Source: Zoroaster sp. YZ-2022 (lineage: Eukaryota > Echinodermata > Asteroidea > Forcipulatida > Zoroasteridae). From it: a stretch of DNA of 64,000 nucleotides. Below, in pieces: positions 325 through 53,100 of the stretch (within the stretch, counting starts at the first letter, position 1; each line of letters opens with the position of its first letter). Position numbers and translations under genes: made by a program. Under the pieces are notes generated by a model that saw nothing but the letters and a program-made list of their open reading frames with translations, did not search any database and was not told the origin of the DNA. The stretch covers positions 25,124,715 through 25,188,714 of the forward strand of contig CM055819.1 in NCBI GenBank assembly GCA_029582265.1, given 5' to 3'.

Positions 325-1253
325 TATTGGCTTTATGGGACCAACTAAACGTAACCATTTGTCAGACACATCTAGTCATTATGCATTATAACTCACTCAT
401 TGTTTGCACACTGCAGAAAGCTGTGGTGACACATGTATGAGCTATATTTGGTCACATTCATGTGAGTCAGCTGTTGAGCTGGTGGTCCCTCAATTTTTGC
501 TGTTCAAGGTTTGTGGCTCCATGCAAGTTTGGGGCTGGTTTTGACTGATTATAGACTCTGAAGCAAAACATGACTTTTTTTCAACAAAGCTCATATTGTT
601 ACGGTCACAGTTTGTGTCCATAGTTATTTTCAGCTCATATTCACTGAGCCGTTAATCCTTTGGTTTCTTAACTTTCTCTACCAATGTCTTGGTACATGTG
701 TGTAACAGCTCACATCTATAGTTCTGTACCCACCTCATCACTGGACGATCCGTGGGCGTGGTTGACATGCCTACCTAGTCTATCTACTCTATGACTACCT
801 ACTCTGAGTGGCACTGATGGGCTGTGATGTTCCCCACAGGGCTACCTACTCTGTTCAACAAGATGCCTGGTGGTAAGTGCTGGAGCCGAGCCCCCCCCCC
901 CCCCCCCCAGTCCCGAGCCCCCGAGTTGACCGAGCAAGCTGGCATTCCGATTTCTTTATGGTAATGATTTAATATTCGGCCGAATACTTATTTGTTGATT
1001 TATTTCTGCTGTAAACCACTTCATGTCTTGATTTATTATTTCCTAAATTAATGTCATTCACTTGTAGTCACCCGTTGAGATTGGTATAAATAAATTCATG
1101 TAATTATTGTTATAATTATTATACAGAATGTCTCAACCTGTGTCCTTTGTCATCAGTTGCTGGTTTCCCTATTCATTTATCATTTTGGTTATTCCCTTGT
1201 TTATCGTCTGCCTTGCGCACCGGCTTTGATGGCTATTCACCGGATCAGTTGGT
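325..1253. other. Non-coding duplicated flank with an 18-base C run
   Basis: No gene is seen. Positions 330-400 hold the empty target site of the large tyrosine-recombinase element (ATT at 399-401 followed by GTTTGCACAC). A homopolymer C run covers about 891-908. The stretch is repeated at 30416-32660 and 50101-52420, where an extra segment of about 1.4 kb (30760-32171 in the second unit) lies between the bases matching 727 and 728. Confidence 0.7.
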
Positions 1254-3344: not shown

Positions 3345-3765
3345 GAGTCTAAAACCCAATGTACAAATTAAAAAATTTCATGCGATGCAAGTACATGTAG
3401 GAACGAAGCTGGTCTGGTAATTATGAGCGAGTAATAAACGACCGTCTCTGAAAAACTAACTGTGGGCGCACTAACAATGCACTTACCAATATCACTAGAT
3501 TGCAAATTGAGGCCTTTATATTAAATCTCTTTTTCAAATTGATAGGTGCATGTAGAGTCTAAAACCCATTCTACAAATGAAACAATTTAGTGTGGTGCAA
3601 GTAGAGGCAAAGCTGGTCTGGTAATTATGAACGAGTAATAAACGACCGTCTCTGAAAAACTAACTGTGGGACCACTAACAATGCAATTACCATTACCACT
3701 AGACTGCAAATTGAGGCCTTTATATCAAACCTCTTTTTCAAATTGATGTGTACATGTAGGATGTG
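3345..3765. repeat. Two direct repeats of about 210 bp
   Basis: Both copies begin with GAGTCTAAAACCCA (3345 and 3555) and end near CTCTTTTTCAAATTGAT. They share the stretch around AATAAACGACCGTCTCTGAAA. The same double repeat occurs upstream of GPCR copy 6 and after the first gap (about 37660-38010), but only one copy is present near 17865-18075. Confidence 0.85.
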
Positions 3766-4057: not shown

Positions 4058-4384
4058 CCCTAACTCCCTATGCCCATTTCTGAATCCTCCAAAATCCTTC
4101 AGTAGTAAAGCAAGCACATGACATGTATGCACACATGTGTTTCTAATCTGTGATACATGTACATGTACATGACCAGGGACCCTCCCTGCATGCATGGAGC
4201 AATAAACAGTGTCCACTGGCCCAAGCACTGACCTTGCAATCACTACAACAAACATGAATGTACGTACATGTACCATGGAAAGGCAAGTATGCCTAATTAT
4301 AATAACCTCAATCCTCCAAAATCCTGCACTTTAGCAAAGAGGATTTTGGAGGATTTTGGAGGATTTTGGGCGTAAGGGTAAGGG
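4058..4384. mobile_element. MITE-like element built from GGATTTTGGA motifs, copy 1
   Basis: The left end reads TTAACCCTAACTCCC and the right end GGCGTAAGGGTAAGGG, so the two ends are roughly inverted. Just inside, AATCCTCCAAAATCC on the left is inverted as repeated GGATTTTGGA on the right (about 4340-4369). Related segments are at 15416-15782, 18380-18650 (right end missing) and 41112-41553. The last has clear TTAA target duplications; here only the left TTAA (4054-4057) is seen. Confidence 0.5.
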
Positions 4385-6067: not shown

Positions 6068-7116
6068 CACCAGTGTCTTTGCTCACTCTTCAGTGTCTTT
6101 GCTCGCTGTATGTAAACAATGAAAATGATTCAATCAACCTGCAAACAGTTCAAGTAGGACCAACATTACTGGCAGGAAGCTATATGAGATCACAGACACA
6201 GCAGAGCAGCTTTGAGTAAATTCCAACCGACTGTCAATATCCCATTGTTAACGACCCTGATCTTCACGAATACACCGACTCAGTATGTCAACCAAACGGT
6301 ACAGAGTAACCAATAGGATGTATTTAGCCTTTCCATGACAACTGGTACCACATGATGTATCTAGACGTCAATTAAACCTTTGGCTTTTGATGCATGTACA
6401 CCACACTATACATGTAATGTCATACGTCATTATTATCCATCATTGTTCAGCCATTATTCCTCACAATAAAGCCATTTTCACATGAGTCAAACAGTAGGCG
6501 TTTTCATACTTGGATCGCTTTACCAAAGTATTAGTGCTGGAACAATTAAAAGTCTGTTAACCTACCAACCAACCTAAACTGCACTATCAACCGTTACTGA
6601 AAACCAATATTAAAAAAAAAAAATTAAAAAAACCCCACAATTTTGAAAGAATTTGCTGCCCAGATGTTCATGACTTTCTTTTTTCCACATTGGTTATTAA
6701 ACAATCATTGCGGGAAGTTTACTGATGCTTTTTGATTGACACTCAACCCCTGTGATATCGACTCAACTCATACCCAAGTCATCTTGTACCCAGTTCAACT
6801 CCTACCTAAACAACCCAAGTCAAGTGACTCAACTCGTACCAGAGTCAACTTGTTCCCAGGTCAACCCAGAAAGACCAGCTACATGTAGAAGACAAACATG
6901 AAGTAAAAAAGGCTTGAAAAAGAAATGGCAGTGAAAGAATAATAAGTTTATAAAGTGCTGCTTATTACATTTGTAGGAATGAATTTGTTCGCTAAAACGT
7001 AGACAACATTTTGTTTAAAAAATAAAATGGATGTACATACGTACATGTACATGATGTAGTCTGACTGACTGTGTCTCATAGTATCCTCCTTTAGTACATG
7101 TAATATGTTAAAGGAA
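6068..7116. other. Upstream flank of GPCR copy 2, with GTACC/GTCAACT short repeats
   Basis: No gene is seen. The first 400 bases match the upstream flanks of other receptors. Positions about 6760-6870 hold irregular copies of GACTCAACTCGTACCAGAG, which are expanded at 18655-18895 and degenerate at 54850-54980. TACATGTA at 7095-7102 replaces a plain TA found at 19105-19106 in the paralogous segment. Confidence 0.6.
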
Positions 7117-7819: not shown

Positions 7820-9560
7820 CAACAGGATGCATGGAGCTTATTCAAAGGCAGGTTCAAACTTCATGAGGATGTACTGTAAAAGTCAAGTGATAACTGAGAA
7901 TGTTGACAATTAAGATGCTCTTTTACCACTGTTGACATCAAGAAATTTGCTTCACCTTCAATGACCACCCCACTCCCAATTTATCTTCTTTTTTTTCTTC
8001 CTTTTTTAAAATTTTAAATCACTTGCATTCATGTACAATGTACACATGACAACACCCACTGCCCTCCTAGTACTACATGTACATGTACTACAGTGTACTA
8101 CAATGTAATTAAAGTAGGAAAAAATTGGTGTATGAGCTTTGCATTCCTCAGAACAGAGGTGCCTACATGTACAATGTACATGTACCTGTAGAGTACATTT
8201 GAATTTATTACAGCTCTGTTGTTCAGTAATTAAAACATGCTTTTATTTATTTCATGTCAAATTGCAGGAAATATCACCATGTTGGTTATCGGCAAGAAGT
8301 GAGGTTGTGTCGGGGATATACATGTACATGTATCAAGGATGCCCGCCGCACAACTTTTTGGATCCTAATGGACAATATACAGTAAGGGATTTTCATATCC
8401 TCTAGTAAACTAGTTTGCTAAATATGATGCGATCTACGTGTTTTTACAACATTCAATTATTTTCCCTCGCAATTAACAAATTGGTTTCCTTATTGGTGAC
8501 ATTTCTGTAGTGAGCTTTATTACACGTACATGTAGTTAAACAATTTTTAGTACATGTATGTACAAGTGTACACAGATCCCAACCAATTTGGACTCGCACT
8601 CAGACTCAAGCTTTCAGATGAACTTAGCAGCAAAGGGTCATTCCACATCAAATCACACACTTCCCAAGGTTAGTTTTTTTTCCAAATTCCAAATTAAAGG
8701 CAAAAATATACTCATTGTGTAGACCAAATATAAAAATTTGCTCTTAATTAAGTAATTATGTGAAATACATGTAAGGGTGTACATACATGTACTTTTAAAG
8801 ATGTGCAGGGCACTCAATGTACAATATGTACGTACTTTGTGTTTGCATCATTTGATATGGTGTGACTGGGTGTGACTGGGGTTGGTTCTGCAGTGTGAAT
8901 AGGGGGACCCAGGATTTACTTGGGGGACGAACAGACCTTAGGTGGGGGGAGTGTCAGAATTCTACCTCACTTAGTCTTTTGGTCATGGCTAAGCTCGAGG
9001 GTTAGTTGTGACAGGGAACGCGAGTCCAAATTGGGTTGAGTCCGAGTCCGAGTTATTGTACATGATGATTCAAGTCCGAATTGGTTAAAATCAGACGATT
9101 TTGGATTCAAGTCCAAATCAAAGGTTATATAAGGCTGTCAGCATCAATTTCAATAAAAACAGTTTTTGTAGCAACAGCTTCTTTGTCTGAAGTATGGTGC
9201 TGGTAAAATGTCTAAAAAGTGAAGAGATACAAAACCGACCTGTGAAAGGTTTAGCCTATATTTACTTGTATGGTTTACAATAAAACAGCAAAACAATCTC
9301 CAATTTCCAGCTTTGTCTGTACGCATTCTTATATTGAAAAGTGTTATTTCTTAAAATTTCTTAAAATTTGAAAAAGACAGCATTTGAGATGGAATAAGTT
9401 CACAGAATGTTTGGTACCATTAGATCTTCAAACCAAATAAGCTTTAAGATAATAATTCACAACATTTGTTTTCAGGCAATTACCCATAGTATAAACTGCC
9501 TATAATGCTTACACTAATGCTATTCTTGAGTAATGTAAACAATTAGATTTACATGAAACT
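7820..9560. other. Intergenic repeat block with exon-like relics and an inverted repeat
   Basis: No intact gene. The block recurs at 19206-22480, 36250-37020, 39225-41100 and 55300-57300. A relic at about 8268-8400 starts after a 3' splice-like CAAATTGCAG and reads EISPCWLSARSEVV and later CPPHNFLDPNGQYTVRDF. The paralogues differ by frame-changing indels, so it is not a working exon here. Sequence near 8575-8610 (CCAATTTGGACTCGCACTC) is inverted near 9010-9050, forming a pair about 430 bp apart. Confidence 0.5.
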
Positions 9561-11582: not shown

Positions 11583-13317
11583 TCAGACACATCTAGTCAT
11601 TATGCATTATAGCGCACTCATTGTTTCCTCACTGAATAAAGCTATGGTGACACACATATGAGCCACTTGGTCACATTCATGTGAGCTCCGTGCATTGGTC
11701 CCACAATTTTTTGCTCTTCAAGGTTTCTGGCTCCATGCAAGTTTGGGGTTGGTTTTGTAAAAATTCTGATTTGACTAGATTATAAGCAAAACATGACTGT
11801 TTTTCATCAAAGCTCCTACGATGATGACAAGCTCAGCAGGTCCAGCGTTAAATTCTTGGGGCTTGATGGAGTCTCACATACATGTATGTCCAGCTCAGGT
11901 AGCACAGAGTGCATGGACACAGATAGTAGCAGCTGAGAAAGTTATGTCTGTTGTGTCCACTTAAAAGCAAAGTTATGGAGTACATTGTGAAGTGCAATTG
12001 GCTCCACAGTGCAATGTACATAACAAAAGGAACCGATACACACAGAAACCAATGCATCTACAAGAGCTGGATTCAGACTCCGGATGTTGGTGACACTGCA
12101 GAGTTTTCATGCGACATATGTATGAAAAAGCCAGAAATCAAATAATACATGTACAAATACATGAGTCTTTTCAGACTGTAGTAACCTTGTTTTATTACAT
12201 TCCTTGTAAATACTCTTGGAACCTGTACGCATGCGCACCATGTACACGGTGCACATTCTTTTGAGTCTGGTTTCCAAACGACTTTCTACATGTTGTGCCA
12301 TGCAGGAAAAAGTACTCTAACTTTACACTCTCTCTGCGCAGTTTTCTTCGGAAACGATCGACACGTTGTGAATTTTTGAGTGATAACTCCTGTTTTTTTC
12401 TCAAGTTTCTCTACGGGACTACGACAACTTTTACAATTCGTCGTCCTTCTAAATATTGACTGTTATACTGTGGATTTGTGGCTTGTGCTCACCGAGGTTT
12501 TCATCAGTTTTGGACCGCGTTTCTGTGGAGCTAGAAAACGAGCTTTCCGGACCAATATACGTGTGTAGTGATTGCATACGTCACACGCGTATGCCTGTAC
12601 TGTGTAGGCCTACAGCCGAATGGGTGCCGCACCATCCAGCGTGCGGAGCAGTTTTTCGTACCGCTGTTCGGTGGCGGTGGACGATTGAAGCCCAGACAAA
12701 AGATACTGACATTGTTGGTAACTGGTTATAACTTTTATCTACAACCATCACAACAAGTAATGACGTGATTATCTTAATATAATCATCAGCCATGTTTGGT
12801 AATGCTTTTATAGCATGTGCGTAAGCATAATTCAGTTGAGTTTGATCAGCAAATATTACAAATAAACAAATAAACAAATAAACAGTTAGCAAAAAAAAGT
12901 GAGTTTCAACTTCAAACAGATCCAGTAGCAAACGCACATCAGATTTACAGTTTGAAGGGATGATATATCATTGGTATTGTTGGACAAAACTGCTTCTACA
13001 AGTATTAACTCTATTTGAATCAAGACATGTGTTGTGTCTGCATTATTGTATTAGCGCCCTCAGGGTTGAGGTATGATAAACCAGGTTAGAAATGTGATTA
13101 CGAAGTTCAAGGACATGCAAGCATTTTACCGTTAATTAAGATTGTCAGTGTCATTTATTTCCATTCAGTTACGTATGCGTGTATTCAGTAGAATTTGAGA
13201 AAGAGATCTCCTAAATTCAAACTGGAAGTTACATGTATTTCACTTTTTTCAAAAATGACAGCCTCAGACACAATTATTTCAAATGAAGATTGATACCATC
13301 ATTAGCTTTTACACAAT
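11583..13317. other. Duplicated flank carrying an insertion of about 1 kb
   Basis: The outer parts (11583-11880 and 12900-13310) match 360-600 and 1360-1800 of the first unit. Between them about 11890-12890 is extra. It contains a CpG-richer part (12190-12700), an (AAATAAAC)n run near 12856-12880, and a right part shared with 9780-10020. The ORFs inside are short and show no recognisable domain. It is likely an unclassified mobile element. Confidence 0.5.
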
Positions 13318-13694: not shown

Positions 13695-13857
13695 ATGTAG
13701 TACGGTAAGTTTCACAATACAATTCAACTATTTCGTTTTTTTAATTTATAAATCGTATTCATTACCTTTAACAAATAAAAATTAAATCTTAAAAATAATC
13801 ACTCTAAATGCTAGAACTTGTATTAAATAAACAGTGCCCATTACATTGTGATTGTTA

Positions 13858-14856
13858 CTAAGATTCAACTGTTTCCATTTCTGGACCAACTTGATTTGGT
13901 TGTCTCCATCGATCACATTTGCACACCATAGACTTCAATGCTTTCTGAAGCTGTTCATATTTGAATCCATACAAGACTGGGTTTATAGCAGAATTCATCA
14001 ATGCTAAGAAAGTAAATATGTCCCAAATGATGACACTATGACTGTTACTAATTACATCAGAACCACGTAACAATGGATCCATGAAGAACCAGATTGCTCC
14101 AGGCACCACAAAAATAAAGAAAGCCGTGGTGACAACAGCAAGAGTGCTGGTGACTTTCTTGTGAGCTTGGTGCAGCTGTTGAGCTGGTCCCTGGATTCCT
14201 TGCTCTTCTAGGTTTCTGGCTCCTTGTTTGAGGTTGGCAAGGATTCTGATATACATGTACATCCAAATCGTAGCTCCAGCCGGTAGAATAAACACTATCA
14301 TTGACACAATGCCAAAAATGGTTTTACCTGCACTGTTCGTAAATGAACATTTATTTGATTGGTACTGGATGATGATAAAAACTATACGAGGCTAATGCAC
14401 CATGGGTGGAATAACCCAAACAGCAAGTAATAACAGGATGATCTTTCTCCTAGTGAAGTAGTTTGGATACTGCAAAGGTCGGTTGATTCCAATAAAGCGT
14501 TCAAAATTTGCCAATGTGAGGCTCAGTACAGAGTGGCCACTGAAGCTGCTTGTAAAAAAATAGTAAGTAAATGTATTATTGTGCAGAAAAATTAATCCTG
14601 AAGTACACTGAGTACTGTTGAGAGTGAAATAAGATATAAACTGTAAGGTAATGAATGGATACAGAGGAAAACATGTAGAAACCAATGCATCTGCGATGGC
14701 TAGATTCAGAATCATCAAGTTGGTGACATTATGCAGTGTCTTCGTATAACATATAGTCACACATACAAGAATGTTTCCGATCAACCCCACAATTCCTACA
14801 AGTATCATCACAACTTGATAAAATGTCTGTATCTCCTCATTAATATTGTAATCCAT
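13858..14856 (-). pseudogene. GPCR family copy 4, full length with one in-frame TAG
   Basis: All seven segments are present in one frame over 332 codons, from MDYNINEEIQ to METVES. Codon 155 is TAG (14392-14394) where the paralogues have TTG (Leu) after PPMVH at the TM4/loop-2 border. No frameshift is present. The C-terminal part carries an extra Met-Tyr pair (WMYMYIRIL) caused by TACATGTA at 14252-14259. Loop 3 is unique (DPLLRGSDVISNSHS). A single base change explains the stop, so this is a young pseudogene or a segregating null allele; a sequencing error is possible. Confidence 0.88.
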
Positions 14857-16453: not shown

Positions 16454-17446
16454 TTACTGAGCTTCAACTGTTTCCATTTCTGGACGAACTTCATTTGGTT
16501 GTCTCCATCGATCACATCTGCACACCATAGACTTGAATGCTTTCCGAAGCTGTTCATATTTGAATCCATACAATACTGGATTTATAGCAGAATTCACCAA
16601 TGATAAGAAAGTAAATATGTCCCAAACGATTAAATTATCACTGACACTAATTATATCGGAACCACTTAACAATGGATCCATGAAGAACCAGATTGTTCCA
16701 GGTAACACAAGAATGAAGAAAGCCGTGGTGACAACAGCAAGAGTACTGGTGACTTTCTTGTGAGCTTGGTGCAGCTGTTGAGCTGGTCCCTGGATTCCTT
16801 GCTCTTCTAGGTTTCTGGCTCCTTGTTTGAGGTTGGCAAGGATTCGGATGTACATCCAAATCGTAGCTCCAACCGGTAGAAGAAACACTATCATTGACAC
16901 AATGCCAAAAATGGTTTTACCTGCACTGTTTTTAAATGAGCAGTTATCAGATTGGTACTGGATGATCATAAAAACTATACGAGGCAAATGCACCATGGGT
17001 GGAATAACCCAAACAGCAAGTAATAACAGGGTGATCTTTCTCCTAGTGAAGTAGTTTGTATACTGCAAAGGTCGGTTGATTCCAATAAATCGTTCAAAAT
17101 TTGCCAGTGAGAGGCTCAGTGCAGAGTTGACACTGAAGCAGTTGATAAAGAAATAATAAGTCCATTTACTTTTGTACAGAAAAATTAATTCCAAAGTACA
17201 ATGAGTACTGTTGAGAGAGATATACTGTGAGGTAATGAATGGATACAGAGGAAAACATGTAGAAACTAATGCATCTGCGATAGCTAGATTCAGAAATATC
17301 AAGTTGGTGACATTATGCAGTGTCCTTGTATAACATATAGTCACACATACAAGAATGTTTCCGATCAACCCCACAATTCCTACAAGTATCATCACAACCT
17401 GATAATACATGTATGTCTGTATCTCCTCATTAATATTGTAATCCAT
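16454..17446 (-). CDS. Rhodopsin-like (class A) GPCR, tandem family copy 5
   Basis: An intact receptor of 330 residues. The frame is open upstream to 17695, but the ATG at 17446 (MDYNINEEIQ) is the start shared with the paralogues and the upstream extension lies in conserved non-coding flank, so 17446 is chosen. The usual GN, LAIAD, ERF, TM4 Trp, TM5 Pro and NPVLY motifs are present. Two extra residues before TM1 (QTYMYYQVV against QTFYQVV) come from TACATGTA at 17406-17413. Loop 1 is shortened and changed (SQYISLNSTHC). Loop 3 is DPLLSGSDIISVSDN. Confidence 0.92.
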   Translation of the reverse strand: MDYNINEEIQTYMYYQVVMILVGIVGLIGNILVCVTICYTRTLHNVTNLIFLNLAIADALVSTCFPLYPFITSQYISLNSTHCTLELIFLYKSKWTYYFFINCFSVNSALSLSLANFERFIGINRPLQYTNYFTRRKITLLLLAVWVIPPMVHLPRIVFMIIQYQSDNCSFKNSAGKTIFGIVSMIVFLLPVGATIWMYIRILANLKQGARNLEEQGIQGPAQQLHQAHKKVTSTLAVVTTAFFILVLPGTIWFFMDPLLSGSDIISVSDNLIVWDIFTFLSLVNSAINPVLYGFKYEQLRKAFKSMVCRCDRWRQPNEVRPEMETVEAQ

Positions 17447-19205: not shown

Positions 19206-20481
19206 GACCAGGATGCATGGAGCTTATTCAAAGGCAGGTTCAAACTTTATGAGGATGTACAATGTAAAAGTCAAGTGATAAAGGAGAATGTTGACAAAGA
19301 ACATGCTCTTTTACCATTGTTGACATCAAGAAATCTGCTTCACTTCCACTTTCATTCCCAATTTATTTATTTATATATTTATTTATATATTTTTTAATCA
19401 ATGCATTCATATGCACAAGACCCACTGCCCTCCTAGTACTACATGTACATGTATTACAGTGTACTAATTATAGTAGGAAAAAGAAGTATGAGCTTTGCAT
19501 TCCACAGAACAGAGGTGCCTCAGTATTGAGTTTGTGTCGGGGCTACATGAACGTACATGTACATGTATCATGGATGTCCTCCACACAACTTTTTGGATAC
19601 TAATGGACAATATAAGGGATTTTCATATCCTCCAGTAAACTACATGTACATGTAGTTTGCTAAATATGATGTGATCTACTTGTTTTCACAACATATTCAA
19701 TTATTTTCCCTCGCAATTAAGAAATTGGTTTCCTTATTGGTGACATTTCTGGAGTAAGCTTTATTTTTTAGTTAAACAATTTTCATTTCATACAAGTGTA
19801 CACAGATCCCATTCAGACTCAAGGTTTCAGACTCGGAACTCGGCAGCAACGGGTCATTCGACATCAAATCACACACTTCCCAAGGTCAGTCCCACAATGT
19901 TATTTTTTTAAATACTTTTTCCTGAAAGTTCCAAATTGCAAATTAAAGGTCAAAGGTATACTCATTGTGTAGACCAAATATAAAAATTGGCTCTTAAGTA
20001 ATTACAAATGTATATGAAATAGGGTGAACATGTACTTTTAAAGATGTGCAGGGCACTCAATGCTGATATATGTACATGTACATTATGTACTGACTACATG
20101 TATACTCAGGTACATGTATGTGTACATATAGTACTGATGTATTTGATGTACAGTACGTGTATAGCTACATGTACATTGTACACTCAGCGGTGTGAGTGGG
20201 GTTGACTGGTGTTGGTGCTGCAGTCTGAATAGGGGAAACAAGGATTTACTTGGGGGGGAGGAACAGACCTTGGGTTGGAGGAGTGTCAGAATTCTACCTC
20301 ACTAAGTCTTTCGGCCATGACTAAGCCCGAGGGGTTAGTTGTGACAGGGAGCGCGAGTCCAAATTGGGTTGAGTCCGAGTCCTAGTCATTGTACATGTAC
20401 ATGATGATTAGAGTCCAAATCGCTAAAAATTGGATTCGATTTGGATTCAATTTGGATTCAAGTCCAAATCAAAAGTTATAC
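19206..20481. other. Intergenic repeat block rich in TACATGTA
   Basis: Copy of the 7820-9130 block. No intact gene; the open frame beginning at 19167 carries GVERQSDQDAWSLFKGRFKL but runs out of a hairpin into AT-rich repeat. The octamer TACATGTA and its variants are dense at 20080-20190. At 19641-19654 the sequence TACATGTACATGTA replaces a plain TA at 8410-8411 of the paralogue. Confidence 0.55.
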
Positions 20482-21932: not shown

Positions 21933-22689
21933 AAGGCTGTCAGCATCAACTTCAATAAAAACAGTTTTTGTAGTAACAGCTTCTTTGCCTAAATTATGGT
22001 GCTAGAAAAATGCCTTCATATTGTACATTGAAGGGGGGTGTACACTATTGGTAAAATGTCTAAAGGGCATCTACATGTATACTTTATAAGAGTGAAGAGA
22101 TACATGTATAAAAACAACCTGTGAAAGTTTCAGCTTATTTACTTGTATGGTTTATGAGAAAATAGCAAAACAATGTCCAGCTTTGTTTGTATGCATTCTA
22201 ATGTTGAAAAGTACATGTAGTGTTATTTCTTAAATTTGTAAATTGTCAACAACATGTTCATGTTTTCTTGAAAAAGACAGCATTTGAGACGGAATAAGTT
22301 CACAGAATGTTTGGTACCATTAGATCTTCAAACCAAGTAAGCTTTTAGATAATAATTCACAACTTTTGTTTTCAGGCAATTACCCATAGTAAAAACTGCC
22401 TATAATGCTTACACTAATGCTATTCTTGAGTAATGTAAATGATTTCAGATTTACATGAAACTTACTTGGTGTATTTAAATTGATGATGGGATCAAACATA
22501 AATTGATACATGTATATTTCTGTCTCAGGTATTATCATTTTAGTGCAATTGATCAAATTATTTTAAAAAATAAATTGTTGTCTACCGGAGACGTAAATTC
22601 CATGTTGGAGTGAATACGTCAAATCTGAATGCATATCCACTGAGTTCTATTTTCTTGAAATTAGATGAAACTTTCACGGGTTGTTAATT
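21933..22689. other. Intergenic repeat block, end of a large unit
   Basis: Matches 9130-9560 plus 11260-11460, and 40358-41110 and 56580-57335. No gene. Confidence 0.6.
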
Positions 22690-23439: not shown

Positions 23440-24611
23440 ATACTCAGACTCCAATAAAACAAAGAAAGATGCAGGTTGGTTGAATGAATTCATGCCACAG
23501 TCAAAACAACTGTTTTTATTTTGTGCCTGATACCATTTGTTTGGGCAAACCGGTCACTAAGAACAAAAACGGCAGGTACACCAGACCCAAAAAGCGGTAC
23601 ACCAGACCCAAAAAAGCGGGTACACCAGACCCTTAAAAGCGGGTACACCAGACCCCAAAAAGCGGGTACACCAGACCCAAAAAGCGGGTACACCAGACCC
23701 AAAAAGCGGGTACACCAGACCCAAAAAGCGGGTACACCAGACCCAAAAAAGCAGGTACACCAGACCCTTAAAAGCGGGTACACCAGACCCTTACAACAGC
23801 GGGTACCCTACAAATTGCTGGATATGCCAGCTAAAAACCAAACATTCTTGGGTAGGCCTACACCAGGTTAACTTTACATGTACCTCCATGTCTGTATATA
23901 ATTATAATAAAATGACAAAAGCATGTTTCATAACATAATCAAAAGATACAGTTGCACTTCCACCGATGGAACATTGTCGGAATCATAGCCTCATGAAACT
24001 TGCGAGCGCTATGGCAACCATACCCAAACAAAACAAATTTAATGACATGAATACTGTAATTATTACAGGTTGATCACCACTCACCAAAATGGGGTTAATG
24101 GCTGTCTGAACCCTACAAAAAATGCCATTATACATAGTAGGAGCAAAAGGCATTAACCAACCTTACCAACCTAAAAAGAGGAGGAGCCTGTGGGATGGCA
24201 GTGGGAATATTTTCTAGCATCTTCATTAATCCAGTGACTGTGACAAAGTGGAAGATAAATTCATTAAGCCCGCCTAACCTAAAGTTTAATGATGCTTAGA
24301 TGAGCAAATTAATTGGTTAAGCCTGTAAAGAATTTGCATACGAGCACGTACCTGCCTAACAACCAGTAAACAAATAGCCCAAGGTCAGCCGATTGTTTTG
24401 GCATACAGCCAAATACCAGGGGCCAATAATGAAAGACAAGTGATGAAACACTTCTCACGAGTGAGGGCGCAATACAACAAATATGATGCCAAGCATTTTG
24501 CATAAAGTGCAATAACATGCAATCGGAGAGGAAAGCCCCAGCATGGGATAGAACAATGTAAGTTTACGCTGAGCATAAAGACCTTTTATCCTAAAGGTGA
24601 TAAAAGGAATT
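23440..24611. repeat. Short A2-B2 unit of the split-repeat element
   Basis: Positions 23440-24122 match the left end of the long unit (24612-25177) and 24206-24611 match its right end (30005-30415). An 83-bp stretch between them (24123-24205) is not in the long unit. It sits immediately next to the long unit, with GGAATT joined to ATACTCAG. Confidence 0.9.
23571..23818. repeat. 22-bp minisatellite GCGGGTACACCAGACCCAAAAA in B2
   Basis: About eleven copies with A-run or CTTAA variants between GCGGGTACACCAGACCC cores. Copy number differs among related ends (24739-24870, 41827-41974, 44481-44551, 57607-57722, 58687-58811). The long ORFs on both strands here are produced by the repeat. Confidence 0.95.
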
Positions 24612-30004: not shown

Positions 30005-30415
30005 AATATTTTCTAGCATCTTCATTAATCCAGTGACTGTGACAAAGTGCAAGTTAAATTCATTAAGCCCGCCTAACCTAAAGTTTAATGATGCTTAGAT
30101 GAGCAAATTAATTGGTTAAGCCTCTAAAGAACTTGCATACCAGCACGTACATGTACCTGCCTAACAACCAGTAAACAAATAGCCCAAGGTCAGCCGATTG
30201 TTTTGGCATACAGCCAAATACCAGGGGCCAATAATGAAAGACAAGTGATGAAACACTTCTCACGAGTGAGGGCGCAATACAACAAATATGATGCCAAGCA
30301 TTTTCCATAAAGTGCAATAACACGCAATCGGAGAGGAAAGCCCCAGCATGGGATAGAACAATGTAAGTTTACGCTGAGCATAAGACCTTTTATCCTAAAG
30401 GTGATAAAAGGAATT
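30005..30415. repeat. A1 terminal repeat of the split-repeat element
   Basis: Matches 24206-24611 from AATATTTTCTAGCATC to GTGATAAAAGGAATT with few differences. One difference is TACATGTA at 30148-30155, where the other copy has TA (24349-24350). Confidence 0.9.
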
Positions 30416-36012: not shown

Positions 36013-37020
36013 AGATATTAAACAAAAATAACAAATAAATTAACCCTAACTCCCAATGCCCATTTGCTTACACATAACCTGAATCCTCCAAAATTTTTCG
36101 TACATGATGTAGTCTGACTGACTGTGTCTCATAGTATCCTCCTTTAATAATATGTTAAAGGAAGAGACTGCCTACTACTCCCACAGTCTCCTCAGTTAAC
36201 AATTGTTAAATGATATGGCAGGAGTTGGCGGGAGTAGAGAGGCAGTCTGACCAGGATGCATGGAGCTTATTCAAAGGCAGGTTCAAACTTCATGAGGATG
36301 TAAAAGTCAAGTGATAACTGAGAATGTTGACAATGATTTTTTTTTTTTAATCACTTGTATTCACGTACATGTACACAAGACAACACCCACTGCCCTCCTA
36401 CATGTAGTACTACAGTGTACTAATTAAAGTAGGAAAAAAGAAATTGGTGTATGAGCTTTTCATTCCACACAACAGAGGTGCCTACAAGTGCATATTATGT
36501 ACCTGGAGAGTACATTCGAATTTATTACAGCTCTGTTGTTCAGTAATTAAAACATGTTTTTATTTATTTCATGTCAAATTGCAGGAAATACATTGTATAT
36601 TGGTTATTGGCAAGTAGTGAGGTTGTGTTGTGGCTATATCTACGTATATGTATCATGGATGTCCTCCGCACAACTTTTTGGACCCTAATGGACAATATAC
36701 ATGTACAGTAAGGGATTTTCATATCCTCCAGTAAACTAGTTTGCTAAATACATATATGATGTGATCTACGTGTTTTGACAACATATTCAATTACTTTCCC
36801 TCGCAATTAAGAAATTGGTTTCCTTATTGGTGACATTTCTGTAGTGAGCTTTATTTTTTAGTTAAACAATTTTCATTTCATACAAGTGTACACAGATCCC
36901 ACTCAGACTCAAGGTTTCAGACTCGGAACTCGGCAGCAAAGGGTCATTCCACATTAAATCACACACTTCCCAAGGTCAGTCCCACAATTTTTTATTTTTT
37001 TAAAAACTTTTCGAAAGTTC
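36013..37020. other. Intergenic repeat block up to the first gap, with the 85-bp hairpin at 36164-36248
   Basis: Matches 19080-19900. The hairpin is intact. TACATGTA at 36698-36705 replaces a TA at 8378-8379. No gene. Confidence 0.6.
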
Positions 37021-38012: not shown

Positions 38013-38679
38013 CCCTCCTACTCTAGGTGCACTTTAGTGGGAAGTTGCTACAGTGGTCAAAATCAGTCAATTGACCGTTTTTGACTGTTGAATCAACTGT
38101 GCACACATGGGCACTGGTGACTTGTTTTGACCATTTGGGTAGCTGCCACACACTGTGCTATGACTGCTGGTGACTGATAAGATCATTATCAGCTTCAGGG
38201 GATCACTGACTTGTTTTGACTGAACAAACAATGATAGGGGTACTGAAGGCTGCCAGTTTTTGACTGATAAATCAATGCAGGGCCACTTAGGCTAGGAGTC
38301 AATGACTTGTTTTGACTGATAAATTAATTTATTTTGACCATAGTGCTTACATGTACATCAGTCCAAAACGCTGACTCATTTTGACCACCATCCACATTAC
38401 ATGTACAAATTAAAAACAGTCACCTCATTTTGACCAAAATGCCTTTACCAGTCGAAAATGGTCAACTCATTTTGACCATGGTCAACTCATTTTGACCACC
38501 TTCAACATTGCATGATAATGCTTTTACCACTACCAGTCAAAAACAGTAGACTGTTTTTGACTGATTGATGTACTTGCTACACATTAGGTTTGACAGTATT
38601 TGACCTGTAAGTGCTGTAGATATACACTGGCATGAACTTTGAAATTTTGACTGATTTTGACCCTTGTAGTATAGGAGGG
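38013..38679. mobile_element. MITE-like element filled with TTTTGACTG motifs, copy 2
   Basis: Same ends and insertion site as 35108-35704. It is about 70 bp longer, mostly from extra GTCAACTCATTTTGACCA-type motifs near 38430-38490. Confidence 0.82.
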
Positions 38680-38987: not shown

Positions 38988-41107
38988 AGATATTAAACAA
39001 AAATAACAAATAAATTAACCCTAACTCCCTATGCCCATTTGCTTACACATAACCTGAATCCTCCAAAATTTTTCGTACATGATGTAGTCTGACTGACTGT
39101 GTCTCATAGTATCCTCCTTTAATAATATGTTAAAGGAAGAGACTGCCTACTACTCCCACAGTCTCCTCATTTAACAATTGTTAAATGATATGGCAGGAGT
39201 TGGCGGGAGTAGAGAGGCAGTCTGACCAGGATGCATGGAGCTTATTCAAAGGCAGGTTCAAACTTCATGAGGATGTAAAAGTCAAGTGATAAAGGAGAAT
39301 GTTGACAATGATTTTTTATTTTTATTTTAAATCACTTGCATTCACGTACATGTACACAAGACAACACCCACTGCCCTCCTAGTACTACAGTGTACTAATT
39401 AAAGTATGGAAAACAAATTGGTGTATGAGCTTTTCATTCCACACAACAGAGGTGCCTACAAGTGCATATTACATGTATGTACCTGGAGAGTACATTCGAA
39501 TTTATTACAGCTCTGTTGTTCAGTAATTAAAACATGTTTTTATTTATTTCATGTCAAATTGCAGGAAATATATTGGTTATTGGCAAGTAGTGAGGTTGTG
39601 TTGTGGCTACATGTACATGTACGTACATGTATCATGGATGTCCTCCGCACAACTTTTTGGACCCTAATGGACAATGCATGTGCAGTGAGGATTTTCTTAT
39701 CCTCCAGTAAACTAGTTTGCTAAATATAGTGTGATCTACGATGTTTTGACAACCTGTTTAATTACTTTCCCTACATAATTAAAAGTGGTTTCCTTATTTG
39801 GTGACATTTCTAGCAAGTAAGCTTTATTTTTAGTTAAACAATTTTCATTTCATACAAGTGTACACAGATCCCACTCAGACTCAAGGTTTCAGACTCGGAA
39901 CTCGGCAGCAAAGGGTCATTCCACATTAAATCACACACTTCCCAAGGTCAGTCCCACAATTTTTTATTTTTTTAAAAACTTTTTCGTGAAAGTTCCAAAT
40001 TCGAAATGAAAGGTCAAAGGTATACTCATTGTGTAGACCAAATATAAAAAATGTATATAGTACTGATGTATTTGATGTACACTCAGAGGTGTGAGTGGGG
40101 TTGACTGGTGTTGGTGCTGCAGTCTGAATAGGGGAAACAAGGATTTACTTGGGGGGAGGAACAGACCTTGGGTTGGAGGAGTGTCAGAATTCTTTCGGCC
40201 ATGACTAAGCTCGAGGGGTTAGTTGTGACAGGGAGCGCAAGTCCAAATTGGGTTGAGTCCGATTCCTAGTCATTGTACATGTACATGATGATTAGAGTCC
40301 AAATCGCTAAAAATTTAATTCGATTTGGATTCAAGTCCAAATCAAAAGTTATACAAGGCTGTCAGCATCAACTTCAATAAAAACAGTTTTTGTAGTAACA
40401 GCTTCTCTGTCTAAAGTATGGTGCTAGAAAAATGACTTCATATTAAATTCAAGAGTGTACACTACTGGTAAAATGTCTAAAGGGCATCTATAATTTATAA
40501 GAGTGAAGAGATACATGTATAAAAACAACCTGTGAAAGTTTCAGCTTATTTACTTGTATGGTTTATGAGAAAATAGCAAAACAATGTCCAGCTTTGTTTG
40601 TATGCATTCTAATGTTGAAAAGTACATGTAGTGTTATTTCTTATAATTTGTAAATTGTCAACTAACATGTTCATGTTTTCTTGAAAAAGACAGCATTTGA
40701 AGACGGAATAGTTCACAGAATGTTTGGTACCATTAGATCTTCAAACCAAGTAAGCTTTTAAGATAATAATTCACAACATTTGTTTTCAGGCAATTACCCA
40801 TACAGTATAAACTGCCTATAACAAGCTATACACTAATGCTATTCTTGAGTAATGTAAATGATTTCAGATTTACATGTAACTTACTTGGTGTATTTAAATT
40901 GATGATGGGATCGAACATAAATTGATACATGTATATTTCTGTCTCAGGTATTATCATTTTTGTGCAATTGATCAAATTATTTAAAAAAATAAATTGTTGT
41001 CTACCAGAGACGTAAATTCCATGTTGGAGTGAATACGACAAATCTGAATGCATATCCACTGAGTTCTATTTTCTTGAAAATTAGATGAAACTTTCACGGG
41101 TTGTTAA
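38988..41107. other. Intergenic repeat block with hairpin (39139-39223)
   Basis: Matches 36013-37020 and then 19900-22690. The site of the LINE insertion is empty here (near 40350). Small indels relative to the paralogues begin around 39.6 kb. No intact gene. Confidence 0.6.
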
Positions 41108-41111: not shown

Positions 41112-41553
41112 CCCTAACTCCCCTTGGGTATTTTTACTAGAAAAGTATCCTGAATTCACCAAAATCCACCATTTTGTCACACACAAAATGCTGGTGTCCT
41201 GAATCCATCAGAATCCGCCAGTGTAGATATTGGACATATCCTGAATCAGCCAAAATCCACCACTAAATTTCTGGCGGATTTTGGCTCACATGAAAATTTG
41301 TATAGTATGTTGCTGCATAGAATCCATCAAAAATTCTAACACATACAAAGTGTTACTGTACATGTACAGTACATGTAACTATAATCCATCAAAATACATC
41401 CAACCAACATGACCAAGCAAGTTTAAAAAACTATTGAAATCCTGGAATCCATCAAAAGTCCACCATATGCTCAATGTGGAGATATCCTGATCATCCTTGA
41501 AATCACACTCCAAAACAGGGGGATGGATTTTGATGGATTCAGGGTGGATTAGG
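41112..41553. mobile_element. TTAA-target MITE-like element with AATCCATCAAAATCC motifs
   Basis: Flanked by TTAA at 41108-41111 and 41554-41557; the empty site TTAATTAAAGAACC is at 22684-22697. Ends are CCCTAACTCC and GGATTAGG. The interior repeats AATCCACCAAAATCC-type motifs, inverted at the right as GGATTTTGATGGATTC. A run of nested TA-flanked inserts lies at 41354-41377. No ORF with a domain. It is related to the elements at 4058, 15416 and 18380. Confidence 0.8.
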
Positions 41554-41610: not shown

Positions 41611-43529
41611 TGCTTTTATGGGACCAACAAAAACTTAAACCATTTGTCAGACACATCTAGATCATTATGCATTATAACTCACTCATTATACTCAGACTCC
41701 AATAAAACCAAAAGAAAGCACGCAGGTTGAATGAATTCATGCCACAGTCAAAACAACTGTTTATATTTTTGTGCGGATACCATTTGTTTGGGCAAACTTG
41801 GGTCACTAAGCACCAAAAAGCGCAAGCAGGTACACCAGACCCAAAAGCGGGTACACCAGACCCTTAAAGCGTGTACACGCAGACCCTTAAAAGCTTGTAG
41901 GCAGACTGCCAGACCCAAAAAAGCGGGTACACCAGACCCTTACAACAGCGGGTACACCAGACCCTACAAATTGCTGGATATGCCAGCTAAAAACCAAACA
42001 CTGTTCTTGGGTGAAGCCTACACCAGGTTAACTTTACCTCCATGTCTGTATATAATTATAATAAAATGACAAAAGCATGTTTAATAACACTTAATCAAAA
42101 GATACAGTTGCGCTTCCACCGATGGAACATTCAGTCGGAATCATACTGGCGCCTCATGGAAACTGCAGCGGCGAAAGCTATGGCAACCATACCCAAACAA
42201 AACAAATTTAATGACATGAATACTGTAATTATTACAGGTTGATCACAACTCACCAAAATGGGGTTAATGGCTGTCTGAACCCTACAAAAAATGCCACCCG
42301 CGCCAAGCACGCCCACACAACCCCATCCTGGAATGATGAAGTGATGGTAACACAAACAAACCAATTCATCAATAACAATTTTATTGAAACATAGAACCTT
42401 GCCATACAGTATAACAACAAAGTGTAGAAAATTGAGGAAAAAATACGTCAATAAAGAGGGTTCTCGTGAAACCATTACATATGTGAAATAATAAGCCGCA
42501 ATGTACCATTAATGAACAACTGATTACCAAGTGGAGACAAATGCATACGCCATCATACAAAGTACAGGCTGATCTCCGACCATTTTAAACTTCAAGGGTG
42601 ATGAATACAAGGAACTTGCACCGCGACTGCACTGGAGGATGCTGCCCAACGATTGGTGTTCGGGCGCTTACGCTCAATGGCGGTTGAGGAACAGGGCGCC
42701 CGGCACGTGAAACACACGCTGGCGGCAGCATCAGACCAAACAATGGTTGAGCCCGGATACACCCAACAGCAATCGCGAAGCATCCACGGCAATCTGCTGC
42801 CGTAGTACCGCCAAACTCGTCTGTATCAACTGGGTCATTAGTACCCAAGTGAATGATTATGAAAGCTGCGGAAGGTGCTTGCCCATTTGCTGAGGTCAAT
42901 CAGCAGAGTCGCCGCAGCTCGCCAATACCTGCCCCACCTTTGCCTTTCCAAAACACTTCCATAGGAAGGCTCGAGCGGGTGTTCTGCACTCCGCCTCACC
43001 ATGAATCCCTCAACTATCCAAATTGCACCTACATGTATTGAAAACAAATTGAACACGATAACACTGAAATAAACACCACACGGCAGCCAATGTGTAAGAT
43101 TGCAAGAATTGAACCGCGCACCATAGACAAGTTACACTATGAGTTTGCAAGTTGCAAGTTGGAACTGGGCGGATGTAGGACAAGAACCAGCATTTGAGCC
43201 ATGGCGTCCCATGCTCACGTAATGTCAGCCTGTGAAAGCCGAGCGCAGACGCGGAAGATGCCGCGCCAATACGAAATGAGTGACCCTGTATGTGATGCAC
43301 TTTTAGGCCTGCCAATGAAACTGTTCTCTTAAACACTGAGTTAAACTGGTACCGAGTTCACAGGGTTCCATCAATATGACAGAAAAATGGCCCCAAACAT
43401 TGGGGGCTAATGGCGATGAAAGCCATTAAGGCACGGACCGGACAGAGGAAGTCGTTTCCAGACTACACTAGCCGAATGCGTGATCCTATGCATGGACGTC
43501 TTGAGCGCTGGTTTTTATTTTTTGATGTG

Positions 43530-44480: not shown

Positions 44481-47400
44481 AAAAAGCGGGTACACCAGAC
44501 CCTTAAAAGCGGGTACACCAGACCCTTACAACAGCGGGTACACCAGACCCTACAAATTGCTGGATATGCCAGCTACTAAAACCAAACGATTCCCAGGTTG
44601 GGCCTGCAGGCCTACTTACACTGTATTAGGTCTTTACCTCCATGTCTGTACATGTATATAATTATAATAAAATGACAATAGCATGTTTCATAACATAATC
44701 AAAAGATACATTCAGTCGGAATCATAGCCTCATGAAACTTGCGAGCGCTATGGCAACCATACCCAAACAAAACAAATTTAATGACATGAATACTGTAATT
44801 ATTACAGGTTGATCATTAACTCACCAAAAATGGGGGTTAATGGCTGTCACCAACCCCTACAAAAAATACCACCCGCGCCAAGCGCACCTGGTCTGAAGAA
44901 CAGACCTGGCAACCCCATCCTGGAACTGATGAAGTGATGGTAACAAACAAAACCAATTGTCATCACAATAATTTTATTGAAACATAGAACCTTGCTACAC
45001 AGTACAGTATAACAAACAAAGTGCTTAAAAAATTGAGAAAATCGTCAATAAAGAGGTTCCGTAAACTTGGCCACATTACATGTGAAAAATAAGTTTCCCG
45101 CAAGTTACTAACTAAACAACTGATTACCAGAGTGGGAGACAAATGTACGCAGCATCATACAAGTACAGGCTGATCTCCGACCATTTTAAAACTGAGGGTG
45201 ATGAATACAAGGAACTTGTATCGCTGACCGAGATGCTGCCCAACGATTAATTGTTCGGAGCGCTTACGCTCAATATGGCGGTTGAGAACAAGCGGCGGCG
45301 TAAAACACACGCCGTGCACAGCATCAGACCAAACAATGGTTGAGCGATATGCATGCACGCCAACAACACCGAAGCATCCGCGGCAATCTGCTGTATCGCC
45401 AGTGCAAACTCGCCTGTCTACTGCAACTTCGGTCCATTGGTCATTAGTACCCAAGTGAAGTGATTATGAAAGCTGGGGAAGGTGCCCGTTTGCTGGGGTC
45501 AATCAGGCAGGTCGCTGCGTCGTCGCCAATACCAGCCCCACCTTTGCCTTGCTTCCAAACACCTTCCATAGGAAGGCCGAGCGGCATTCTGCGCACTCCG
45601 CACTAGCTGTAATCCCCAAACGATTCCAAATTGCACCTATTGAAAACAAATTGAACCGATTATAACAATGGAAATATTTACAGCAGCCAATGTGTAAGAT
45701 TGCAAAAGAAATTGGAACTGGTAGGATGTAGGACAAGAACTTAACATTTGGCAAGCATGGCCAACGCCCATGCTCGGCTTAGATCGTCAGCCTTGAAAGC
45801 CCGCGCTGAAGCTAACGGGAAGATCCTTCTGTACAACACGAAATAAGTGACCCCGTGTGATGCACTTTTAGGCCTGCCAATGAATGGCTGTTCTCTTTAA
45901 AACACCGGGTTAAACTGGTATGAGTTCCGGAATTCACGGGGTTCCATCAAAATGACAGAAAATGGCCCAAACATTGGGGGCTTAATGGCGGCGATAAGCC
46001 ATTAAAGAGCCTGGACGGGACAGAGGAAGTCAGTTACACAGGAGCTGCGCGAATCATTATGATCCTATGCGTAGACGTCTTGGGCGCCGGTTTATTTTTT
46101 TATTTTGTATTTTTTGAAGACGCCTTAGAATTATGGTCATCAAAAAATTGATGTTGTATTATGTGTGAGAGAAATTACTTTCTCTCAGAAGCAGCAACTT
46201 TATAGAACAAGAGTAGCTTAGCTATACTGTATTGATTTCTAAACTAAATTTATTAGAGCCCTGTGACCAGCATACCACTTAAACATGCCAGTTAAAGTTT
46301 TACCAATGTAAAAGAAATACTTGTGTAATGTGACAGCAGTGTTTACACACACAGATTCAAGTTCTGTCGAGAATGTAATACATTTGTATTACATTTTGTA
46401 CATGAAGACATGTACTTTTGACCTTGCAGTAGAAACTTCATAAACTTTACCAATGAGTTAATTAATGTTAATTTGTAGCTACCCAGTTGGATTGAATATG
46501 CATATGTCAAGCTGCTGTGAAGTGCCAATCCAATTTGAGTCATAAGCACATCTTGTTTACTAGCAACCAATTACTTGTGGTCACACGCCAGACGTGTCGT
46601 ATATGTTAATTGCTACCATCGGCCAACCATAGACATGCTACAAGTCCTGATTGATCGGGTCATGCACAATCCACATGTGCGCGATCCTTGAATTACTGAT
46701 TTAGTATAGGGACCCCTACATCAAGTTTAGATAGAATCCCATTAATTAAATGGAAGAAATTTCTAAGAGAACTTAATGAATGAAGACATTGAAGAGTTAA
46801 TAAAAGAATATACCCGGTTGAATTGAAAGTAAAACCCTTTTGTTTCAGTGTAACCTTTTATTGTATCAGGTTTGGTTACCGTCGTCGTCCATCATCTTGT
46901 CAGTCCTCAGCCTTTGACTCTGTAAAACTCATCATCATCATCATCCTCTCCACCGCATCACACCATCCTTCACTTACAAACCTCAAGCCCAGATTGTACA
47001 CTCGTATCATCACCTCAGACTTCAGCGTTCTGTTAAAGCAAGCGGTTGTTGAGCTCACACGCGCCCGCTTTTAGTAGTGATAAGAGCGGAGGTTGGTTTC
47101 GACCGTTACAATGTTACGTATAATGACACCACCCCCAAACTGTTAAAAGTTAAAGTTGATGGAACTGGCACAGACATTTCATCACAGAAAAGAAACAGTT
47201 GACCGCATGCTTCATCTTATTCCAGATGGTTGTAAAATTGTTTTAAACTTGAAATAAAATTGTTTTAGTTTAAAAACAACAAGCGGTATAATTTATTTTC
47301 AAATAAAATATTTCTCTTTCTTTCCATAACCATGATATTAATGATCATTTTCTCAACAATTTACCACAACAGACAAATAAGCTGACCAACGACTAAGAAG

Positions 47401-50100: not shown

Positions 50101-53100
50101 GTTTTGCTTACACTGCGAGAAAGCTGGTGACACATGTTACATGTAGCTACTCATGTTGGTCACATTCTATTATGAGCAGCCGCAACTGTTGAGCTGGTGG
50201 TCCTCAATTTTTGCTGTTAAAGCTGGGTTTGTGGCTCCATGCAAGTTTGGGGCTGGTTTTGTCTAATTCTGACCGATTATAGACTCTGAAGCAAAAGTTA
50301 TTTTCAGCTCATGTTCACTGAGCCGTTAATCACTTTTGGTTTCTTAACTTTCCTACCAATGTCTTGGTATAACAGCTCACATGGCCTATACCATGTGGTT
50401 CCTGTTTATTCCCACTTTGTGGGTCAACAAATAATAGTCGGACACAACCTTTGTTGTGACAATCTTCAATCAGTAAATGGGGGTTGGTTTATTATTAACA
50501 TCACTATTTAACAATGTGCACTTAGTAACACAAGTAAGCAGGAGTGGTAGGCAGATATAGGTACGTGTCAATAGTTAAACTTATATATAACTTGTGCTAA
50601 GTTCCGAATAGGGTATACGCAATCACCAACTATTGGGCACAATCAGTAGGGGACCATCGTTTGATTTCATTCATGCGACTCTTTCACCGGCGCATACGCA
50701 TTTCGCTACGGGCACTGCCTTTATACCGAGAGAAAGGGGCGGCTGGTCGGCCCTACGGCGGGGACCACGAGGAGGCTTGACTTCAGCAATGGGTGTCTGG
50801 GGGCGGTAGCCAGGCGTGTGTATCAGACACGCGACCGCGTGCTTCTGATGTGGCGAGCAACCAATGGCCATATCGACGCCCTGCACCATTGGTTCAGAAC
50901 GAGCAGGGCTCTGGACAGTAATAGTTCGGTATATCGCACTGCCTGTCATGGATCCGGATCGGATCGAGTCGGCATAGATTTCATTCGGGAACACTTCATC
51001 CGCGCCGAGATCAGGAAATCTTGGGGATTATATAGAAATCTGGGGACTCTAGGAATGAATAAAACATTAGCCTACTTTAGCATCTTAGGCCAATGAGAAG
51101 CTTGGCTTCCGGCGTCTAAGGGTAGAAGCGTGTGCAAAATCAGGACATACAACAGGTCCTTGTTCCCACATAAGGTAAGGTATTTGTGAAGTGAAGTGAT
51201 TCGAGCAACTTAGAAAGGAGGAGCATGTTCAAGGGAAAATGTTACCGGGCATGTTAAGCTATTTGCTTGGATGCTAGGGTTATTACTGCATGCTGAGGAA
51301 CAGCGAAGCGTGTGGGTTGAGGGGAGCACACCATGCGCATGACAGCTAATGACTCGAGCGGGTCAGCTCACAGGTGACTGTTTGGCCGCGTGATTCACCC
51401 CAACAGCGTTGGGTGAACTCCAGGAAAGTATTCAGAAAATAGACTAAGTCCAAAAAAGGCGGCTCCAAGCCCACGTGTCGCGCGATGAGAGGTGCTGGCA
51501 TGCACGCACGCAGGTTCGCTGGTGTTGCATTGCATTGCACATTAGCATGGATATGCATGAGGAAAAGTAGCGATCCTTGTATGGATTGCATATTCAGCGG
51601 ACAATCGAAGTCTGGGGGGTCACGACAACCCTGGGACTTAGACTGCTTTTGAAATTGCATAAATCAGCAAAATAATGGAAGTGGAAGAAGTGAACTATAA
51701 AGGGGTGCTAATATTTATCAAAATCAAAGATGAATTAAGTAGTTCTTATACATACATGTAGTTCTATTGTAGCAGCAAGTGGTCCTGCTTGGATGAATAC
51801 CTGAGTGTGGGTATAAAATGACAATGTCCACCCTGAGGCCTCACTCTCAATTCACGTTACCTCGGGATGGGAGGCTGACCAGTGCTACTATGGGGCTGAG
51901 GCGCTGCTGCCACCTCCACTGGACGAGTCCGTGTATGTGGTTGGACATGCCTCACCAAGTCTCATCTACTCTGTGACCACCTACTCTGAGCAAGCTGACG
52001 CAGTGGGCTGTGATGTTCCCCAGAGAGCTACCTACTCTGTTCAACAAGGTTGCATGGTAGGTAAGTGCTGAGCCGCCCCCTTCGAGCGAGCCCTGGGTGC
52101 TGACCCGAGCAAGCTGGCATTCGATTTCTTTTATGGTAATGATTTAAGAATTCGGCCGACTTACTTATTTGTTGATTTATTTTCTGCTGTAAACCACTTC
52201 ATGTCTTGATTTATTATTTCCTAAATTAATGTCATTCACTTGTAGTCACCGTTGAGATTGGTATAAATAAATTCATGTAATTGTTATTTATAATACCTAT
52301 TATACAGAATGTCAACCTGTGTCCTTGTCATCAGTTGTTGGTTTCATTCATTTTATCATTTTGGTTATTCCTTGTTTGTAAATCTTGCCTGCCTTTTCAC
52401 CAGCTTTGCTATTCAACGGATCAGGTTATCTGAATATGGCAACAATTTGATGATGACAAATTCTGCGGGCCAGAAGTTAAATTCAAGGGCTAAGGTCTGA
52501 AAAGATGTCCAGCTCAGCTTGTACTGAGCATTGCCCTCAGTTTCAACTTCAAACAGGTCCAATAGCAAACGGACATCAGATTTACAGTTTGAAGGATGGG
52601 GTAATATCATTAGTATTGTTGACAAAACTACTTCTATGAGTATCAACTCTCTTTGAATCAAGACATGACAGTTAGTGTTTAATTTTCAAGTGTCAGGGGT
52701 TGAGATATGATAAGCCAGGTTGGAAATGTGGTTTACCAAAGTTCAAAGAACATGCAAAAATTTTTACCATTAACCAAGATTGTTGTCAGTGTCATTTACA
52801 AATGTATTTCCATTCAGTTATGTGTGTATTCAGTTTAATGTGGAATTTAAGAAAGAGAACTCTTTCCTAAATTCAAACTAGAAGTTATTTCACTTTTTTT
52901 TTAAATGACAGAGCTTCGGACACAATTATTTCAAGTCAAGATTGATACCATCGTTAGCTTTTACACCTAGTAAAGTTCACAATACAATTCAACCAAATTT
53001 GGCTATTTTTGATTTATAACTTCATCCTATGTACCATTAACAAATCAAAATTAAATCTTAAAAATAATTGTCTTGCACTAAATTCTAGAACTCCTATTCA

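Follow-up and report, generated by a model that had tools for sequence, protein, structure and literature searches.

Short insertions at TA between duplicated segments of a sea-star genome as probable footprints of Tc1-family transposon excision

Background

Excision of Tc1 in C. elegans leaves terminal bases of the element between duplicated TAs, and TACAGTA and TACTGTA are the canonical scars of Sleeping Beauty. The typical Tc1 scar is +4, which makes up 78% in the soma (Eide and Anderson, as cited in an excerpt of PMC13148408). An excerpt of PMC2170065 describes the transposase of ISY100, a bacterial relative, as making its cuts precisely at each 3' end and, at each 5' end, two bases into the element, and ANNTANNT is given as the target preference of Sleeping Beauty in a passage of PMC2756404. 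Grass Stowaway/mariner elements are described in part of PMC1925063 as leaving between the duplicated TAs one to four bases of the element, with several footprints at a site and an insertion adjoining an old footprint. The excisions of rice DNA transposons reported in an excerpt of PMC4423477 mostly carry flank deletions (mean 18 bp) or filler. Tc1-Mariner DNA is annotated in Patiria pectinifera according to a passage of PMC10511450.

Here we analyze a stretch of a sea-star genome in which a plain TA in one copy of a duplicated segment is repeatedly TACATGTA in another. We conclude that this word and its variants are very probably the excision footprints of Tc1-family elements with 5'-CA...TG-3' ends that insert at TA. 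The literature searches that we made returned no paper pairing "excision footprint" with TACATGTA and none on Tc1 excision footprints in a sea star or other echinoderm; PMC3520976, a study of oomycete transcription-factor sites, mentions Tc1, footprint, excision and TACATGTA.

Sequences and comparisons

The window, by which we mean the whole stretch of 64,000 nucleotides analyzed, is C4:25124715-25188714 of an assembly of 1.0 Gb in 616 contigs. One of its duplicated genes, the single gene tested, codes for a rhodopsin-family receptor (PF00001), whose closest named relatives are sea-star proteins of Asterias amurensis (best about 61-62% identity), with unnamed ENA proteins at no more than 82%; this suggests a sea star near Asterias. 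When the window was compared with itself by BLAST, 202 pairs were obtained, and filtering on the flanks left 634 distinct indel positions. These are not to be equated with independent events, as the paralogous copies of one event may be counted more than once. A strict set of 26 non-overlapping pairs, drawn up without the satellites and the poorly assembled region, comprises 24,356 aligned bases with 790 substitutions. The direction of change and the TA-x-TA words were counted in the window together with 50 kb of flanking sequence (114 kb). A dinucleotide search collected cases of NN in one copy and NN-x-NN in another with matching flanks, simple repeats being removed; the site at 7872/19258 is absent from the resulting list of 134 events, probably through an A run that meets the simple-repeat filter. 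The scar search required clean flanks, so that excisions accompanied by deletions or filler would escape it.

From 41500 to 63500 the window appears poorly polished, with 29.7 one-base gaps per kb in alignments involving any copy from 41.5 kb on, against 2.3 elsewhere. The scars used from this part are six to eight bases long, unlike one-base errors. The window also holds several larger inserts. One of about 630 bp with inverted ends, at TTAA (7163-7790), which we take to be a piggyBac-like non-autonomous element, is absent in four paralogs, and inserts with CCCTCCTA...TAGGAGGG ends (35108-35704 and 38013-38679) are absent at 3723 and 18039. A LINE-like insert with a reverse transcriptase (PF00078; 20476-21930) is missing from the paralogs at 40354 and 56569, and a SINE-like insert that by eye starts like a tRNA and ends in an ATT-repeat tail (13315-13704) is absent in five window copies. 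Arrays of a 69-bp satellite occupy 1-324 and 22687-23358, and a 22-23-bp minisatellite, GGTACACCAGACCC, occurs at several places.

Results

The recurrent six-base insertions, first noticed in a sequence-only reading of the window, are confirmed, and the observation is stronger than that reading had stated. Seven of the eight pairs that it quoted read as given, 7095/19105 with one flanking mismatch; in the eighth, the double insertion TACATGTACATGTA at 19641-19654 is correct and the empty TA lies at 8411-8412 instead of 8410-8411. Other hexamers, whose equal frequency would have told against the idea, are far rarer: the CATGTA class, in any rotation, accounts for 20 of the 35 six-base positions among the 634 from the window self-BLAST, and the next class for four. 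The strict pairs contain 171 gaps, including 36 of one base, 32 of two and 30 of six, and TACATGTA stands on the longer side at 23 of these 30, a figure from a nearness test, which can also take in chains already present that changed by a unit. Few kinds of small insertion between the duplicated segments are thus as common as these scars. The word itself occurs 90 times in the window (62 once paralogs are collapsed) against 2.1 expected from dinucleotides, and each of the remaining 23 orders of A, C, G and T between two TAs is found zero to five times. TA is also the dinucleotide most often duplicated, in 49 of the 134 window events (AT follows with 30) and in 131 of 450 such events once the flanks are added (TG follows with 95). 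The polymorphic sites are collected in Table 1. The double insertion is filled at 19641 only, with TA in seven other listed copies from the window and flanks. Because it is six bases long, the main scar keeps the reading frame.

Table 1. Scars and chains in the window, with the states of the corresponding sites in other copies
Scar	Position	Strand	Other copies
TACATGTGTGTA	693..704		TA in 30722; TATA in 50368
TACATGTA	3392..3399		TA in 17913, 34786, 37691
TACATGTA	6880..6887		TA in 18895; other, longer states in two flank copies
TACATGTA	7095..7102		TA in 19105, 36148, 39123; A in 55202
TACTGTA	7872..7878		TACAATGTA at 19258; TA at 36301, 39276
TACAATGTA	8099..8107		TA in 19465, 36421, 39396
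TACAGTA	8378..8384		TA in 19613, 55731; nested TACATGTACAGTA in 36698
TACGTA	13170..13175		TA in five window copies
TACATGTA	13230..13237		TA in four window copies, TTA in one
TACATGTA in GPCR reading frame (+2 residues)	14252..14259	minus	TA in four window copies
TACATGTA in GPCR reading frame (+2 residues)	17406..17413	minus	AA, not TA, in four other copies
TACAATGTA	19258..19266		Shares its site with 7872
Double footprint, TA-CATG-TA-CATG-TA	19641..19654		TA at 8411, 36737, 39713; ATGAT at 55759
TACATGTA	22072..22079		TA in 40489, 56709
TACATGTA	23875..23882		TA in 24937, 42035
TACATGTA	30148..30155		TA in 24349; two flank copies also filled, so no single-copy gain
TACATGTA	36399..36406		TA in 39380; one flank copy filled as well
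TACATTGTA	36589..36597		TA in 39569
Nested, TA-CATG-TA-CAG-TA	36698..36710		Same site as 8378
TACATGTA	38348..38355		TA in 35441
TACATGTA	39470..39477		TA in 36496
Chain of four (CATG, CATG, CG, CATG between TAs)	39608..39631		
Chain of four (CTG, CATG, CAG, CATG between TAs)	41354..41377		
TACATGTA	43030..43037		TA in 25886, 45638
TACATGTA	44649..44656		TA in 23895, 24951, 42049
TACATGTA	51753..51760		TA in 32026
TACAAATGTA	52797..52806		TA in five window copies

The inserts at polymorphic sites form a series, CG, CA, CAG/CTG, CATG, CAATG/CATTG and CAAATG, in which the bases vary at the junction of CA with TG. With paralogs collapsed, the 104 TA-x-TA events in the 114 kb comprise 32 with CATG, five with CAG/CTG, four each with CA/TG and CAATG/CATTG, three with CG and one with CAAATG; the remaining 55 comprise chains, isolated oddities and unrelated words (AGGCTCA, AAATTTCT, GACCA). 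The same series is seen in plain word counts of the window, paralogs not collapsed: CA-N-TG between two TAs occurs 90, 18, 12, 12 and 7 times for N of zero to four, against 2, 1, 1, 2 and 1 for the control of reversed order, TG-N-CA. The inserted bases would derive from the ends of an element. Different scars can occupy one and the same site: ggatg-TA-aaagtc has TA in two copies, TACTGTA in one and TACAATGTA in one, and ggacaata-TA-aggg has TA in two copies, TACAGTA in one and the nested TACATGTACAGTA in one. Scars differ between window copies at sites in nine groups, several of which are long chains. The 136 chains in the window are mostly of one unit (118), with 15 of two, one of three and two of four.

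The flanks show a modest preference for ANNTANNT. T at +3 (A at -3) occurs at 47 of 92 TACATGTA flanks against 28.6 expected (p = 5e-5), and at 34 of 66 (p = 4e-4) when possible older scars are set aside, p-values that serve as a guide only because TACATGTA flanks depart at +1 too and other TA-N4-TA control words, which have 56 of 226 against 70.3 expected at +3, depart strongly at +2, repeats disturbing the statistics. The sampled genome stretches described below give 43 of 95 against 31.8 expected, and the variant scars have no excess (15 of 51 against 15.9). As can be read from the word, each TA of TACATGTA supplies half a ANNTANNT target.

The scars extend beyond the window. In 20 stretches of 10 kb each, picked arbitrarily from this genome (200 kb), TACATGTA occurs 82 times against six expected, the density in the window being about 3.5 times that of this sample, and TACATGTACATGTA is present at 29,683 places genome-wide. 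The length series is less clean in the sample (82, 26, 15, 14, 17); simple-repeat words exceed CATG among its TA-x-TA words, and CAATG and CAAATG fall outside the top eight listed for their lengths. In these sampled stretches (L005-L024), TAGGCCTA (GGCC; 20 against 1.6 expected), TACCGGTA (CCGG; 13 against 1.5) and TACACGTA/TACGTGTA (CACG/CGTG; 22 against 4.6) are likewise in excess, and these are perhaps scars of other families or repeats. An equilibrium between the rate of gain and loss by substitution predicts 242-577 TACATGTA in 112.5 kb, where 172 are observed, and window-only versions predict 134, 180 and 172, where 90 are observed. The prediction is of the same order and too high, which may reflect faster recent gain, loss beyond eight substitutions' worth or biased pairs; we do not count it as support.

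A fitting element is present in the genome. At L019:3198-3457 lies a 260-bp Tc1-like element with inverted ends, TA-CACTCACTGGCC...TG-TA, and L013 holds another copy, which matches it at 99.1% identity over the shared 229 bp (two of 29 loci). CTGGCCAAAA in its end resembles the end of C. elegans Tc1. The copy at L013:7532-8829 is split by an insert of roughly 1 kb with an AAT-type repeat tail. This is apparently a young TA-target element with CA...TG ends, and its family would be the source of the window's scars. A search of the window for an intact element with TACA...TGTA ends had as its best inverted-repeat matches pairs of scars and a repeat internal to a different element. In tblastn with a Sleeping Beauty-like protein, the best match in the window had a non-significant E of 1.2, none was found at E 1 in the 29 loci, and the protein had no relative in the viral contigs searched.

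Discussion

The Tc1-type excision proposed by the sequence-only reading is supported, also by the junction variants, the different scars at one site, the nesting and the ANNTANNT preference. It needs correction in one respect: C. elegans Tc1 typically leaves +4 in the soma, whereas here +6 dominates, with both terminal dinucleotides kept, and the inserts that would correspond to a Tc1-like +4, CA/TG, are rare (4 of 104 TA-x-TA events). We propose that the source would be Tc1-family cut-and-paste transposons, either full elements or short non-autonomous copies, whose transposase would insert them at TA, the TA being duplicated. On excision, the element would be cut two bases in from each of its 5' ends, leaving the flanks with ...TACA as a 3' overhang. 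The two-base 3' overhangs are suggested because the junction lies between CA and TG, and the two-base stagger of the proposal is taken from ISY100 (excerpt of PMC2170065). End joining with both overhangs kept would then give TA-CA joined to TG-TA (+6), and trimming or adding one or two bases at the junction could give CG, CA, CAG, CTG, CAATG, CATTG and CAAATG. Every TA gained in this way is already half of a preferred ANNTANNT target and might be hit again to yield chains, some of which may later have been lengthened by slippage.

The sequence-only reading had proposed a search for a TA-target element with CA...TG ends that occupies a site scarred elsewhere; the element exists in the genome, and none was seen at a site scarred in another copy. 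At the scar sites of the 114 kb, with inserts of up to 4 kb considered, no site has an element in one copy and a scar in another; the eight long candidate inserts at scar sites have no inverted ends by eye. Many scars beside no occupied site is also what would be seen if transposase or paired ends broke TA and left CATG in a hit-and-run or abortive action, the element being gone before it could be inherited. However, this ratio would equally result from high rates of excision, just as a short residence of the element would likewise leave no pair of occupied and scarred copies, and residence time is all that separates this alternative from excision of a resident element. We know of no enzyme that acts by hit-and-run scarring at TA, and we regard such an action as improbable.

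The abundance of TACATGTA could further be ascribed to the birth and slippage of a microsatellite, a (TACATG)n array gaining and losing units, of which TACATGTA would be the one-unit form. The sequence-only reading had held that slippage of an existing repeat does not explain the insertions, and this stands at most sites: CATG lies within 10 bp of just two of the 21 empty sites, compared with 315 of 4319 plain TAs (7.3%), so that 19 of the 21 single gains are not the unit changes in an existing array that characterize a hexanucleotide microsatellite. It does not extend to the events at 4154, 18065 and 19553, which fall in pre-existing chains and could be slippage, and five units stand in tandem in the flank copy at 93589 (in flank coordinates). 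Yet slippage cannot yield CG, CAG, CTG, CAATG or CAAATG between TAs, and as the origin of the scars it is contradicted by the plain TA of the empty copies. It remains a secondary process, and as the primary account we consider it quite improbable.

Excision of inserted elements also has the direction of change on its side. In the 114 kb, a lone filled copy faces at least two empty ones at 22 sites, and a lone empty copy faces at least two filled ones at three, further copies in other states being allowed in these counts. Seven sites are one-to-one, and seven have at least two copies of each state, a class in which one palindromic copy may be listed on both strands. The window alone has 13 sites of the gain type against one of the reverse, and a site 10.9 kb left of it is filled in one of 10 copies. 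The site at 30148, one-to-one in the window, becomes one of the three reverse cases when the flank copies are added. A further 42 groups carry an identical scar in all copies found and are uninformative on direction. Were TACATGTA ancestral and lost by recombination between its two TAs, the three reverse cases among the 25 lone-copy sites would be as expected, but at the other 22 a single copy is filled and two to nine are empty, making such deletion very hard to uphold. An account by selection, in which for example a CATG or ACA-TGT motif would be kept for the binding of a protein, has in its favor that TACATGTA is palindromic and that CATG-binding BEN-domain proteins are described in an abstract, but is scarcely credible, as it leaves the six-base insertions at TA, the junction series and the mixed-scar chains unexplained, and the one-mismatch neighbors of TACATGTA are in excess (91 against 44.6 expected, part of this from a satellite word), as decaying scars would give.

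If excision is indeed the source, a single transposon process would account for up to about 13% of all gaps in the duplicates that were compared (23 of 171), or about one scar gap per 34 substitutions. The scars could then mark germline transposition even where the elements are gone, and transposition rates and end-joining outcomes would be measurable from assemblies alone. A wider conjecture, which we offer tentatively and think rather unlikely to hold in full, is that few single sources contribute more small insertions to the germline of this animal than the action of transposase at TA. Scars would outpace settling and create preferred half-targets, their chains would seed (TACATG)n, and the transposon would persist mainly as scars, in the extreme case as scars without residence.

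Comparison with known systems

The present case shares with C. elegans Tc1 the duplicated TA with terminal element bases between the TAs, and it departs from it, as far as the excerpted account of Tc1 goes, in that +4 is typical there and the sea star has +6 with both dinucleotides. TACAGTA and TACTGTA link it to Sleeping Beauty, as does the ANNTANNT target consensus given in a passage on that element; unlike there, the three-base scars are minor forms here, making up a minority of five of the 104 events. With the rice excisions, as described in part of their source, it has in common a comparative catalog and excision as a source of small indels, whereas the sea-star scars found are short and much alike, in part an effect of the clean flanks that the search required. 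The excerpted account of grass Stowaway/mariner elements likewise has bases between TAs, distinct footprints at a site and insertion by an old footprint; it discusses two genes, whereas here TACATGTA stands at 23 of the 171 gaps between duplicates. Footprints of this kind are known, and what is unusual in the sea star is their abundance, the bias to +6 and the chains.
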